A stretch of 39,474 nt of DNA, from the NCBI RefSeq assembly GCF_000342045.1, contig NZ_AONQ01000042.1, positions 1-39,474 of the forward strand. The letters run 5' to 3'. Each line of letters begins with the position of its first letter. Within the stretch, counting starts at the first letter, position 1. A program made the translations under genes and the position numbers. Below, in pieces: positions 10,333 through 17,733 of the stretch. This DNA is from Paramagnetospirillum caucaseum (lineage in GTDB: Bacteria; Pseudomonadota; Alphaproteobacteria; Rhodospirillales; Magnetospirillaceae). The notes under the pieces are model-generated. The model was given only the letters and a program-made list of their open reading frames with translations, did no database searches and had not been told where the DNA came from.

Positions 10333-10347
10333 GGAGCGGCCCTATTC
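10327..10347. terminator. perfect hairpin at the convergent ends of two genes
   Basis: GAATAGGG (10327-10334) pairs perfectly with CCCTATTC (10340-10347) around the 5-base loop AGCGG. The stem contains the stop codons of both convergent genes, TAG on each strand (10330-10332 and 10342-10344). Neither side has a U-tract, so any termination would be weak or factor-dependent, but its placement is that of a bidirectional terminator. Confidence 0.5.
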
Positions 10348-11223
10348 CTTCTCGCGGAATTCCCTGACCACGCGCAGCAGGTAATGGCCATAGGTGCTCT
10401 TGGCCAGCGCGTTGGCCAGGGCCTCGAAGCGGGGAAGATCGATGAAGCCCATGCGCAGCGCGATCTCCTCCAGGCAGGCGATCTTCAGGCCCTGGCGGGT
10501 CTCCACCGTCTGGACGAATTGCGCCGCCTGCAGCAGGGAATCGTGGGTGCCGGTGTCCAGCCAGGCATAGCCGCGCGACAGCAGGGTGACGTTGAGCGCC
10601 CCCATCTCCAGATAGGCGCGGTTCAGCTCGGTGATCTCGGTCTCGCCGCGCGGCGAGGGCTTGAGCCGGGGCGCGATGTCGACCACCCGGTTGTCGTAGA
10701 AGTAGAGCCCGGTGACCGCCCAGCGCGAGGTGGGATGGGTGGGCTTTTCCTCCAGATGGGTGACGTTGCCGGCCTTGTCGAAGGTGACCACGCCATAGCG
10801 TTCCGGATCGGCCACCTCGTAGGCGAAGACGGTGGCGCCTTCGGGCCTAGCCGCCACGCTTTGGACCAACCCGCGCAGGCCATGGCCGTAGAAGATGTTG
10901 TCGCCCAGCACCATGGCCACCGGGTCGTCACCGATGAAGTCGCGACCGATGATGAAGGCCTCGGGCAGGCCGTTGGGCTTGTCCTGGATGGCGTAGGAGA
11001 GGTTGAGACCCAGCTGCGAGCCGTCGCCGAACAGCATCCGGAAACGCTCGATGGCGTCGGGCGTGGTGATCAGCAGGATGTCCCTGATACCCGCCAGCAT
11101 CAGCACCGACAGGGGGTAATAGACCATGGGCTTGTCGTAGATGGGCAGCAGCTGCTTGTTGACCGCCTGGGTCATGGGATGCAGGCGGGTGCCGCTGCCG
11201 CCGGCCAGAATGATGCCCTTCAT
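10342..11223 (-). CDS. rmlA: glucose-1-phosphate thymidylyltransferase
   Basis: A 293-residue nucleotidyltransferase that couples dTTP and glucose-1-phosphate to make dTDP-glucose, the entry step to dTDP-6-deoxysugars. The N-terminal signature [11 protein letters not shown] and the [24 protein letters not shown] and EEKPTHPTS motifs are those of RmlA/RfbA, and the length is normal. The ATG at 11223 overlaps the rmlB stop in a 4-base ATGA arrangement; longer in-frame extensions are the shadow of rmlB. It is the last gene of a seven-gene operon. The usual fourth partner, rmlD, is absent from this window. Confidence 0.95.
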
Positions 11224-12296
11224 GACCGTGTCTCTCCCTTGGTGCCCAGACCCACACGCTGGGCGGCGCCCTTGTCGCGCACCAGCTTCTCCCACCAGGC
11301 GCGGTTGTCCAGATACCAGACCACCGTGCGCTCGAGGCCCTGTTCGAACGATACCGCCGGGCGCCAGTCCAGCTCGGCCTTGAGGCGCGAGGCGTCGATG
11401 GCGTAGCGCAGATCGTGGCCGGGCCGGTCGGTGACGAAGCTGATCTTTTCAGCATGGGGCCGCCCATGGACAGCAGGCGCCAGCCGGTCGAGAATGGCGC
11501 AGATGCCCCGCACCACCTCGATGTTGGCGCGCTCGGAATCGCCGCCCACCAGATAGGATTCCCCCAGCCGCCCCCGCTCCAGAATGGCCAGCAGGGCGGT
11601 AACGTGATCCTCCACGAACAGCCAGTCGCGCACGTTCTCGCCCCGCCCGTAGACCGGCAGGGCCTCGCCCCCCAGGGCGCGGGCGATGATCAGCGGAATC
11701 AGCTTTTCGGGGAACTGGTAGGGGCCGTAATTGTTCGAGCAGTTGGAGACCACCACCGGCAGGCCGTAGGTATGCAGCCAGGCCAGGGCCAGGTGGTCCG
11801 ACGCCGCCTTGCTGGCCGAATAGGGCGAGCGCGGCGCATAGGGCGTCGCCTCGTCGAAGCGCGACCCGTCCATCGCCAGGGCGCCGAACACCTCGTCGGT
11901 GGAAACGTGGTGGAAGCGGAAAGTCTCGCGCGCCGCGCCGTCCAGGCCGCGCCAGTACTCCGTCGCCGCCTCCAGCAGCCGCAAGGTGCCCACCACGTTG
12001 GTGTCGATGAAATCGGCCGGGCCGTCGATGGAGCGGTCCACATGACTCTCGGCGGCCAGATGCATCACCGCACCGGGCCGGTGGCGGGCGAAGATCTCGC
12101 GCAGGCGGATGCCGTCGCGGATGTCGGCATGCTCGAAGGCATAGCGGGGATTGTCCTCGGCGCCTTCCAGAGACTCCAGGTTGGCGGCATAGGTCAGGGC
12201 ATCCAGGTTGACCACATGGTGGCTGGTGGCAGCCAGCAGGTGGCGCACCACCGCGCCGCCGATGAATCCGGCCCCGCCGGTAACCAGAATCTTCAT
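11220..12296 (-). CDS. rmlB: dTDP-glucose 4,6-dehydratase
   Basis: A 358-residue extended SDR that converts dTDP-glucose to dTDP-4-keto-6-deoxyglucose using bound NAD. Motifs: TGGAGFIGG at the N-terminus, [14 protein letters not shown], the active-site STDEVFG with the Asp-Glu pair, catalytic YSASK, and [14 protein letters not shown]. All are diagnostic of RmlB/RfbB. It overlaps rmlC upstream and rmlA downstream by ATGA. Its product is the branch point for the neighbouring reductase, PLP dehydratase and C-methyltransferase as well as for rhamnose. Confidence 0.95.
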
Positions 12297-16167: not shown

Positions 16168-16179
16168 GGCGCGCGCACG

Positions 16180-17733
16180 TTATCGCTTAGGCTTGGTAAA
16201 ATCAACGACCGCCACGCATCCCCAGACATCGTAGTAGCGGCCTTCCGACCTCAACTCGTAGGCCGAATCGAAGGCGATCCTGTAGGGCTTGAGAAAGCGT
16301 TCGCCGCCGCCGAAATACGACGACATGGTGAACGGGTCGCCTCCGGTCGGCACCAGCATCAGTTCGGCGGTGCAGCGCCGCAGGCGCAGGATCTTGGCCG
16401 ACGAGGCGGGACGACCGATATACGACCATTCCATCTCCGACCAGCCGTCGAAGGTGGAAGGATGGCCGGCGAAGATGGGAATGGTGCGCAGGAAGGTGCG
16501 CTCGTAGGGCTTCTCGTTGTGATTGCCGAATCCCATCTCGATGGTCTTGCCGGGATTGGCCGCCATCACCGCGCGGATCTCGGCGGCGGCCTCGGCGGTC
16601 CAGGTGTTCTCGCGGAAGAAGCGGTGGACCTGGCGCTGCGACGGCCAGGCGAAGCCCACCGCCGCTCCGGTGAACACCAGGATGAAGGCGGTGGCCATAC
16701 GGCGTGGATCGGGCAGGGCGCGCGCCACCCGCATGGCAAGGTCCGCCGTGACGGGCAGCAAGGCCAGCATCTGGTACCAGCCGCTGCCGCTGACCACGGA
16801 AGGGTAGATGGCCACCAGGGCGGAGCCGCCATAGCCGGCGACATAGAGCCGCTCTCCCCCCGTCAGCCGGCGCCATGCGAAGGGCGCCGCCAGGACGGGA
16901 ACGAAAAAATAGATCAGGTGGTTCATCTGGCGCAGCGCCAGCAGGGGCTCGACCTCGTGGCGCCCGGCCACCATGGCCAGGATGGAGGCATAGATATCGG
17001 GCGGAAACCACGGCAGGGTGAAGGGAAAGGCCGCAACCAGTGCCCCGGTCACCGCGGCCAGCGGCCAGCGGCGCAGCGGCTGGCCGGCGAGAAAGCCGAA
17101 GACCAGGGGGACAGCGTAAAGGCCGTGATGCACCTTGACGTCGGCCAGCAGGCCGCCGATCACGCCGAGAGCCAGGGGACCAGCCCACCAGGGGCGGCGC
17201 TCGCGGGCCAGTTCGGCCACCAGAACGAGGCCCAGGGTCACCAGCAACAGGCTGACGGGATCGGGCCGCACCCAATAGGCCTTCTTGTCGCCCATCAGCA
17301 CCAGAGCCAGCATCAGCCCCAAGGCGGGGGCAATGCCTTTGCGCCCGAATTGGCGGGCGGCATGCAGGGCGAAGGCCAGCGCGGCGATCAGCGCCGCCGC
17401 GACACCGCCCAGCTTGCTGGCCGCCAGGGTGCCGCCGCCGATCCAGTTCCACAGGCCGTTCCAGGCGAACACCGTGGGGCCATAGACGGTCAGCAGGAAT
17501 TCCGGGTCGGCGGCGTCGCGGTAGATGGGCGCACCCTGGGTCAGCTGCCAGCCACGCACCGCCAGACTGACCTCGCCATGGTCGAAATAGCTGGCGAACA
17601 GCAGGTAGCGGATGGACCCGGCAAGCAAAAGACCCACGAGGGCCACAGCCAGGATGGCGAACGGCACCGAGGGGCCGAGACCCATGGAATGGGGCCACCC
17701 GCCTTCACCGCCACCCCTGTTTCCCGCCCTCAT
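16180..17733 (-). CDS. GT-C-type polytopic membrane glycosyltransferase
   Basis: A 517-residue protein with about ten hydrophobic segments from residue 25 to about 350 and a soluble C-terminal part of some 150 residues. After the first membrane span comes an acidic, extracytoplasmic-loop-like stretch SYFDHGEVSLAVRGW, as in ArnT/PMT-type GT-C enzymes that use polyprenyl-phosphate sugars. It would add a lipid-linked sugar on the periplasmic side. ATG at 17733 is preferred over overlapping GTG and TTG codons just upstream, with GGGGAT at a usable distance. It is the first gene of the rmlCBA operon and ends 12 bp before the methyltransferase. No close family is recognised, and GT-C assignment rests on topology. 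Confidence 0.7.
   Translation of the reverse strand: MRAGNRGGGEGGWPHSMGLGPSVPFAILAVALVGLLLAGSIRYLLFASYFDHGEVSLAVRGWQLTQGAPIYRDAADPEFLLTVYGPTVFAWNGLWNWIGGGTLAASKLGGVAAALIAALAFALHAARQFGRKGIAPALGLMLALVLMGDKKAYWVRPDPVSLLLVTLGLVLVAELARERRPWWAGPLALGVIGGLLADVKVHHGLYAVPLVFGFLAGQPLRRWPLAAVTGALVAAFPFTLPWFPPDIYASILAMVAGRHEVEPLLALRQMNHLIYFFVPVLAAPFAWRRLTGGERLYVAGYGGSALVAIYPSVVSGSGWYQMLALLPVTADLAMRVARALPDPRRMATAFILVFTGAAVGFAWPSQRQVHRFFRENTWTAEAAAEIRAVMAANPGKTIEMGFGNHNEKPYERTFLRTIPIFAGHPSTFDGWSEMEWSYIGRPASSAKILRLRRCTAELMLVPTGGDPFTMSSYFGGGERFLKPYRIAFDSAYELRSEGRYYDVWGCVAVVDFTKPKR

Follow-up and report, generated by a model that had tools for sequence, protein, structure and literature searches.

Which sugar is made by a bacterial operon that carries rmlA, rmlB and rmlC and has no rmlD? 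The question arises in a 39,474-nucleotide stretch of Paramagnetospirillum caucaseum DNA (contig NZ_AONQ01000042.1; the window, by which we mean the whole stretch analysed), where the three rml genes stand together with genes for a DegT-fold enzyme, a sugar C-methyltransferase, an extended short-chain dehydrogenase/reductase (SDR) and a GT-C glycosyltransferase. On balance we favour, with modest confidence, the reading that this cassette makes and attaches a 3,6-dideoxy-C-methylhexose linked to deoxythymidine diphosphate (dTDP). If the homology of the C-methyltransferase to KijD1 and TcaB9 holds, the methyl group would most likely sit at C3.

Seven of the genes lie on the minus strand at 10342-17739, all open and with zero internal stops, and an eighth gene faces them:

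8785-10332, plus strand: family GT2 glycosyltransferase, polyprenyl-phosphate-sugar-synthase-like, fused to an S-adenosylmethionine (SAM) methyltransferase (PF00535 + PF13489)
10342-11223, minus strand: rmlA, glucose-1-phosphate thymidylyltransferase (TIGR01207, 470.5 bits; cut-off 360.7)
11220-12296, minus strand: rmlB, dTDP-glucose 4,6-dehydratase (TIGR01181, 466.9 bits; cut-off 365.1)
12293-12868, minus strand: rmlC-type epimerase, 3,5- or 5- only (TIGR01221, 179.5 bits; cut-off 155.8)
12858-13742, minus strand: extended SDR, proposed NADPH-type 4-ketoreductase in place of RmlD/AscF (PF01370, 88 bits)
13748-14944, minus strand: DegT-fold predicted 3-dehydrase dependent on pyridoxamine 5'-phosphate (PMP), dTDP branch (PF01041)
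14944-16167, minus strand: sugar C-methyltransferase, KijD1/TcaB9 type (PF08421, PF08484)
16180-17739, minus strand: GT-C glycosyltransferase, without a family model (predicted fold)

Transcription runs from the GT-C gene through the C-methyltransferase, DegT, SDR, rmlC and rmlB to rmlA, with junctions of 12, -1, 5, -11, -4 and -4 nucleotides (nt), and such tight spacing gives an operon-like arrangement; since the same gene order recurs in four other genomes, a chance arrangement can be rejected. The GT-C gene starts with TTG at its 17739 end, and an ATG at 17733 matches the end given in a first-pass annotation, which had described a seven-gene operon at this place and proposed a search of other genomes for its order. 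The operon stands, its genes being open, closely spaced and of the right families, and the search found the order in those four genomes, always with the GT2 fusion as an eighth gene. The limits of the unit do not stand, as the fusion lies outside the annotated coordinates. It is convergent with rmlA, 9 nt separating the two stops, and it travels with the seven, so that the cassette is one of eight genes. What the DNA itself shows is which enzyme families are present, that their genes form an operon, that this operon is conserved and that no rmlD exceeds the cut-off.

Three rml genes above their cut-offs might suggest that L-rhamnose or some other common 6-deoxyhexose is made by an unusual route, in which the SDR replaces RmlD and the DegT enzyme and C-methyltransferase act on other substrates. 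We consider this very improbable. The host genome (99.99% complete, 236 contigs) gave 16 matches to the RmlD model, none over cut-off, in a search that placed 9 of 14 control genomes over it; the rml trio without rmlD thus holds for the genome as a whole, as the first-pass annotation had it for the operon, and the RmlD reductase that belongs to the dTDP-L-rhamnose pathway is missing. The best of the 16, on contig C16 (105 bits against 224), is an SDR amid methyltransferase genes in another neighbourhood and was rejected as RmlD. A single RmlA and a single RmlC pass their NCBIfam cut-offs in the genome, and on that evidence the operon is the organism's dTDP-sugar route; a second RmlC-like gene, in a different region (C4), scores 143 bits, under cut-off. 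Also against the rhamnose route, rmlC is present in each of the 10 loci, among the 80 described below, where rmlA and rmlB accompany DegT, in a set collected through DegT from which the frequency of rmlABC without DegT is not readable.

The DegT enzyme is the key to the proposed product. Among solved structures in the PDB it is nearest to E1 (233.5 bits), followed by ColD (151.9 bits), and it scores 310.6 bits against the NCBIfam RfbH model, under the cut-off of 423. In an alignment of 81 sequences (the window and 80 loci) histidine occupies the position of the lysine that binds pyridoxal 5'-phosphate in 81 of 81, the window included, which bears out the earlier call of a His-type dehydratase and is the state found in E1 and RfbH. 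Of the E1 [2Fe-2S] cysteines, which we take to be Cys193, 251, 253 and 261 and placed through the E1 alignment, none of the 81 sequences has the last three, and six of them, including that of the window, keep the equivalent of Cys193; the four-cysteine set of E1 and RfbH is therefore incomplete throughout. In the passages of PMC8987622 drawn on here, His for Lys marks the 3-dehydratases; E1 and SpnQ have a [2Fe-2S] cluster and work with electron donors, and ColD, without the cluster, has its PMP regenerated with glutamate. The same passages name three well-characterised substrate types, the cytidine diphosphate (CDP) sugar CDP-4-keto-6-deoxyglucose, the guanosine diphosphate (GDP) sugar GDP-4-keto-6-deoxymannose and dTDP-4-keto-2,6-dideoxyglucose; none of the three pairs a cluster-free enzyme with dTDP-4-keto-6-deoxyglucose. 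By its residues and neighbours the window enzyme looks like one with ColD-type, cluster-free chemistry on a dTDP substrate.

The substrate link can be followed across the family. A one-genome-per-species scan gave 243 DegT relatives, and the loci of the best 80 of the 243 were fetched; they span Alphaproteobacteria (including Pelagibacteraceae), Bacteroidetes, Gammaproteobacteria and others. Labelled by bit-score thresholds over the fetched flanks, with GDP-mannose 4,6-dehydratase genes outside the label set, 10 have rmlA and rmlB, another 32 the CDP-glucose genes (rfbF and rfbG), and the remaining 38 neither pair. A quick DegT tree, with L030 added, has the Shimodaira-Hasegawa-like approximate likelihood-ratio test (SH-aLRT) as its only support measure. 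On one side of a branch with a value of 100 stand the 11 dTDP-linked rows, counting the window, together with L030 and the outgroup, and on the other the 70 rows that are CDP-linked or unlinked; a single change accounts for the dTDP/CDP label. Since the E1 outgroup branch is very long and there is a long-branch warning (L052/L056 with L109/L114), neither the root nor the way in which the dTDP rows join is certain. Six alignment positions part the 11 dTDP rows from the 32 CDP rows with few exceptions (A7, Y9, L28, A180, T185 and F189 in the window, numbered without the first Met), three of them within seven residues of the catalytic His182. This leads us to a narrower proposal, held tentatively and put a little short of probable: that the DegT enzyme belongs to an uncharacterised, widespread family of 3-dehydrases, which would be a fourth kind next to E1, ColD and SpnQ, cluster-free and with dTDP and CDP branches marked near the histidine, and that together with the C-methyltransferase it yields a 3,6-dideoxy-3-C-methylhexose.

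The wider family holds other arrangements. In many of L041-L067 and in L077, DegT stands with rfbF and rfbG and often with a C-methyltransferase and an SDR, a CDP counterpart of the pathway, in Rhodobacteraceae, Stappia/Roseibium, Qipengyuania and Erythrobacter; a C-methyltransferase is present in 17 of the 32 CDP-type loci. The 38 of 80 loci (L068 and others) in which neither rmlA/rmlB nor rfbF/rfbG rose over the thresholds in the fetched flanks are mostly from Bacteroidetes.

How constant is the cassette itself? All eight genes occur in window order in 3 of the 80 loci (L035, L036, L037), where identity to the window is 80% for rmlA, 78% for the C-methyltransferase, 75-77% for DegT, 73-75% for the GT2 fusion, 70-71% for rmlB, 69-73% for rmlC, 53-58% for the SDR and 43-47% for GT-C. 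GT-C is thus less well conserved than GT2 and most of the genes for making the sugar, which fits a constant sugar and a varying acceptor. At E<=1e-100 the DegT subclade is found in 12 of 297 genomes of the order, the window's own included, and in 0 of the 16 congeners searched. With the flanks of all 12 read, five have the complete eight-gene set (the window, G038, G463, G486 and G497), and G486, G497 and G038 share their sequence with L035, L037 and L036 respectively, so that the other cassette genomes total four. Elsewhere G620 and G489 have DegT-SDR-rmlC-rmlB-rmlA, the rmlA of G620 being cut by the contig start, G502, G531 and G572 have rearranged gene sets, and the G036 contig stops within the SDR. 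Five other genomes carry the GT2 fusion next to the cassette, at 71-75% identity, and at E<=1e-60 it is matched in 11 of 385 genomes of the class, its own included, in some of them through the GT2 half alone. So limited a spread of the DegT subclade may point to horizontal transfer.

Attachment would fall to the two glycosyltransferases. The GT2 half has weak, under-cut-off NCBIfam matches to AglJ and a dolichyl-phosphate-hexose transferase and PDB matches to DPMS and ArnC (E 4e-6 to 2e-4). The GT-C protein matches no Pfam or NCBIfam family at E<=0.001, and at E<=1e-15 it was matched in only one of the 385 genomes of the class, its own, in a sample that missed the four other cassette genomes. 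Its predicted model is moderate, with a predicted local distance difference test score (pLDDT) of 63; the four Foldseek matches at E<=1e-3 are chains of the oligosaccharyltransferase (OST) complex and ArnT, and ranks 1-24 are all GT-C enzymes (OST, ArnT, PglB, AftB, PMT, PimE). The GT-C enzyme of the first-pass annotation is supported on this basis by a predicted transmembrane fold, and a polyprenyl-phosphate-sugar-synthase-like GT2 adjoins the cassette. From that neighbour we infer that GT-C uses a polyprenyl-phosphate sugar donor.

For the two genes that would finish the sugar the assignments are less specific. The PDB relatives of the RmlC-type protein are RmlC proteins (3,5-epimerases) first, followed by NovW and putative 3-epimerases. 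The SDR passes no NCBIfam cut-off, that for RmlD included. Its YxxxK pair and the Arg that follows strand 2 are shared by all 7 sequences aligned; such an Arg points to NADPH and hence to a reductase. The predicted model (pLDDT 86) has the extended-SDR fold, and with Foldseek UDP-glucose 4-epimerases, GDP-mannose 4,6-dehydratases and a 4-keto reductase score alike, so that the fold cannot part reductase from epimerase. Of the non-RmlD ketoreductase described earlier, the non-RmlD part agrees with the score under cut-off and the ketoreductase part is a proposal from motifs.

The C-methyltransferase described earlier is confirmed by its PF08421 and PF08484 matches, the zinc-binding N-domain, the SAM domain and the C-terminal domain all being present. 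Its best PDB match is the sugar 3-C-methyltransferase 5t64 (364.8 bits), which we take to be KijD1; the two are 46% identical over 402 columns, and the Tyr-x-Glu-His stretch and the His that have a catalytic role in KijD1 are kept. At E<=1e-80 the enzyme is matched in 18 of 385 genomes of the class, its own included, and the flanks were read in eight of the other 17 (L134-L141): L134 has rmlA, rmlB and rmlC, L135 has rmlA and rmlB, L137 has rmlB, rmlC occurs in L139 and L141 along with an rmlB-like gene farther off, and all three are missing from L136, L138 and L140. Relatives in such varied neighbourhoods make it probable that the C-methyltransferase works on several 4-keto sugars, at C3 or close to it. 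The same pathway with the methyl group at C5 would give a noviose-like 3,6-dideoxy-5-C-methylhexose, C5 likewise adjoining the C4 ketone; noviose is methylated at C5, and NovU-type 5-C-methyltransferases share the families PF08421 and PF08484. We regard methylation at C5 as quite unlikely, the solved full-length relatives being KijD1, TcaB9 and the D-mycarose 3-C-methyltransferase, in a comparison set that held no 5-C-methyltransferase.

Several observations count against a single 3-deoxy, C-methylated product, and most of them concern this enzyme. G475 keeps the cassette order (GT-C, DegT, SDR, rmlCBA, GT2) without the C-methyltransferase, and its 70% homologue lies on another contig, not beside DegT, adjoining an RmlD (259 bits, over cut-off) and an RmlC-like gene (153 against 156), so the C-methyltransferase may use a sugar that still bears O3. 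In G572 (93% complete) and G489 (73% complete), both with DegT, SDR and rmlCBA, the C-methyltransferase finds no match at E<=1e-20, and the DegT-family genes in four of the eight flanks (L134, L136, L137, L141) code for aminotransferases of the Lys type, not the His type. The cassette may thus yield two separate products, or a mixture: an un-methylated, ascarylose-like 3,6-dideoxyhexose through DegT, and a virenose- or evalose-like 3-C-methyl-6-deoxyhexose on an O3-bearing intermediate. We think this unlikely, given that the operon has a single GT2 and a single GT-C at its disposal, that the C-methyltransferase and DegT genes overlap by 1 nt, and that 6 of 10 dTDP-type loci carry both (5 of 9 if L052 and L056, with 97% DNA identity, are counted once). 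Further points against the favoured reading are that the RmlC could be either a 3,5- or a 5-epimerase, that the SDR could be an epimerase and at 53-58% fits poorly the contrast in conservation between sugar genes and GT-C, that TM-scores for GT-C are low, 0.28-0.41 of the query, on a model of moderate quality, and that every catalytic step is deduced from family and context.

In G475 the C-methyltransferase homologue stands in a row with RmlD, the RmlC-like gene and a second C-methyltransferase (L183:7177-11330, contig C28), probably a C-methylated rhamnose-type pathway; G475 was dropped as a natural C-methyltransferase-free cassette on account of that homologue.

The first-pass annotation proposed a 6-deoxyhexose that is C-methylated and deoxygenated and is added from a lipid carrier. 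This has come through tests able to refute it and is still the best reading, with no RmlD over cut-off, a conserved cassette, a His-type DegT, a GT-C fold and an adjacent GT2; the analysis supports placing the deoxygenation specifically at C3, taking ascarylose rather than rhamnose as the nearest complete pathway, and treating the C-methyltransferase as separable. The product, the order of the steps and the methylated carbon are what we infer from these parts. RmlA and RmlB would make dTDP-4-keto-6-deoxyglucose, from which DegT, with PMP and its active-site His, would expel the C3 hydroxyl; the step would be finished as in ColD, by hydrolysis and regeneration of PMP from glutamate, and would need no E3-type reductase because DegT lacks the iron-sulphur cysteines. 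The C-methyltransferase would add its methyl group beside the C4 ketone, C3 being the most likely position, either ahead of the DegT step or following it, and if the methyl group is at C3 the composition would be equal whichever acts first. RmlC may then act as the epimerase on C5, and perhaps on C3 too, the part played by AscE in the synthesis of ascarylose, and the SDR would reduce C4. The GT2 domain would move the sugar to polyprenyl phosphate, the fused methyltransferase possibly O-methylating it, and on the periplasmic side GT-C would pass it on to a surface glycan.

Other genes in the window deserve mention. A second C-methyltransferase (28771-30015, minus strand; PF08421/PF08484) is followed by an SDR (27710-28771, minus strand), and the pair also occurs in L170 (G620), 57% and 67% identical, about 7 kb from the DegT-SDR-rmlC-rmlB set; the pair may provide the same surface glycan with another branched sugar. 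Divergent from GT-C is a B12-binding radical SAM protein (17853-19505, plus strand), which passes no NCBIfam cut-off among the 25 families shown. An asparagine-synthase-type protein (24944-26806, minus strand) scores 410 bits against the asparagine synthase cut-off of 267 and higher, 490, against an XrtA/PEP-CTERM amidotransferase model, under its cut-off of 817; its 77% homologue in L031 adjoins a 30% relative of the window GT-C. Two tRNA calls by ARAGORN, tRNA-Sec (14210-14298) within DegT and tRNA-Asn (23914-24007) within a heparinase-like gene, overlap coding sequence and were rejected as probably false.

If the proposal is true, a dTDP route to 3,6-dideoxyhexoses would exist beside the CDP and GDP routes, through an enzyme that needs neither an iron-sulphur cluster nor a partner reductase and could be a handy biocatalyst. 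With the DegT family in 80 fetched loci, many surface glycans may hold overlooked deoxysugars, and the CDP/dTDP split offers a testable set of specificity residues.

The first-pass annotation knew of no pathway with exactly this gene set, and none was found here: text searches of an open-access library, with subscription papers and other spellings of the names outside their scope, gave no description of a 3-deoxy-3-C-methyl or 3,6-dideoxy-C-methyl bacterial surface sugar, of dTDP-ascarylose or of the gene set. We drew on passages of PMC8987622, PMC3539893, PMC7725333 and PMC4802897. Paulomycin was rejected as a dTDP 3-deoxy route, a 2,3-dehydratase and a 2,3-reductase being proposed instead in the passages that treat it. 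Near-name matches (cladinose in macrolide names, 2,6-dideoxy sugars and 4-amino-5-C-methyl dTDP sugars in metabolite lists) were unrelated.

Among known systems, the proposed pathway would be the ascarylose scheme moved to dTDP, plus a methyl branch. The CDP-ascarylose pathway (RfbF, RfbG, E1 with E3, AscE, AscF) likewise proceeds by nucleotidyl transfer, 4,6-dehydration and PMP-dependent C3 deoxygenation, and ends with an RmlC-type epimerase and an SDR, the roles of AscE and AscF. The cassette differs in using dTDP and not CDP, in lacking three of the four iron-sulphur cysteines, so that no E3 is expected, and in its extra C-methyltransferase and GT2/GT-C pair. For E1 and E3, the roles in the CDP-3,6-dideoxyhexose pathway are as given in the passages of PMC8987622. 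ColD, of GDP-colitose synthesis, shares the His-for-Lys DegT fold without an iron-sulphur cluster, whereas the window enzyme is nearer to E1 (233 against 152 bits) and linked to rmlA and rmlB. SpnQ, of spinosyn synthesis, is likewise a 3-dehydrase of a dTDP sugar, but it has a cluster and acts on a 2-deoxygenated sugar, according to the passages of PMC8987622. The virenose model for Coxiella lipopolysaccharide also has a TylCIII-like C-methyltransferase acting on a nucleoside-diphosphate-4-keto-6-deoxyhexose, with one route from dTDP-glucose; the other proposed route is GDP-based, and no 3-dehydrase is named in the passages of PMC3539893 used. With rmlABCD, the dTDP-L-rhamnose set, the cassette shares rmlA, rmlB and rmlC, but it has no rmlD over cut-off and has DegT, a C-methyltransferase and a different SDR instead. 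The KijD1, TcaB9 and mycarose 3-C-methyltransferases resemble the window enzyme in sequence and in active-site-type residues, and act on sugars whose C3 bears N or O; in the cassette, by contrast, C3 of the substrate is probably deoxygenated, and the product would be destined for a surface glycan and not for an antibiotic.

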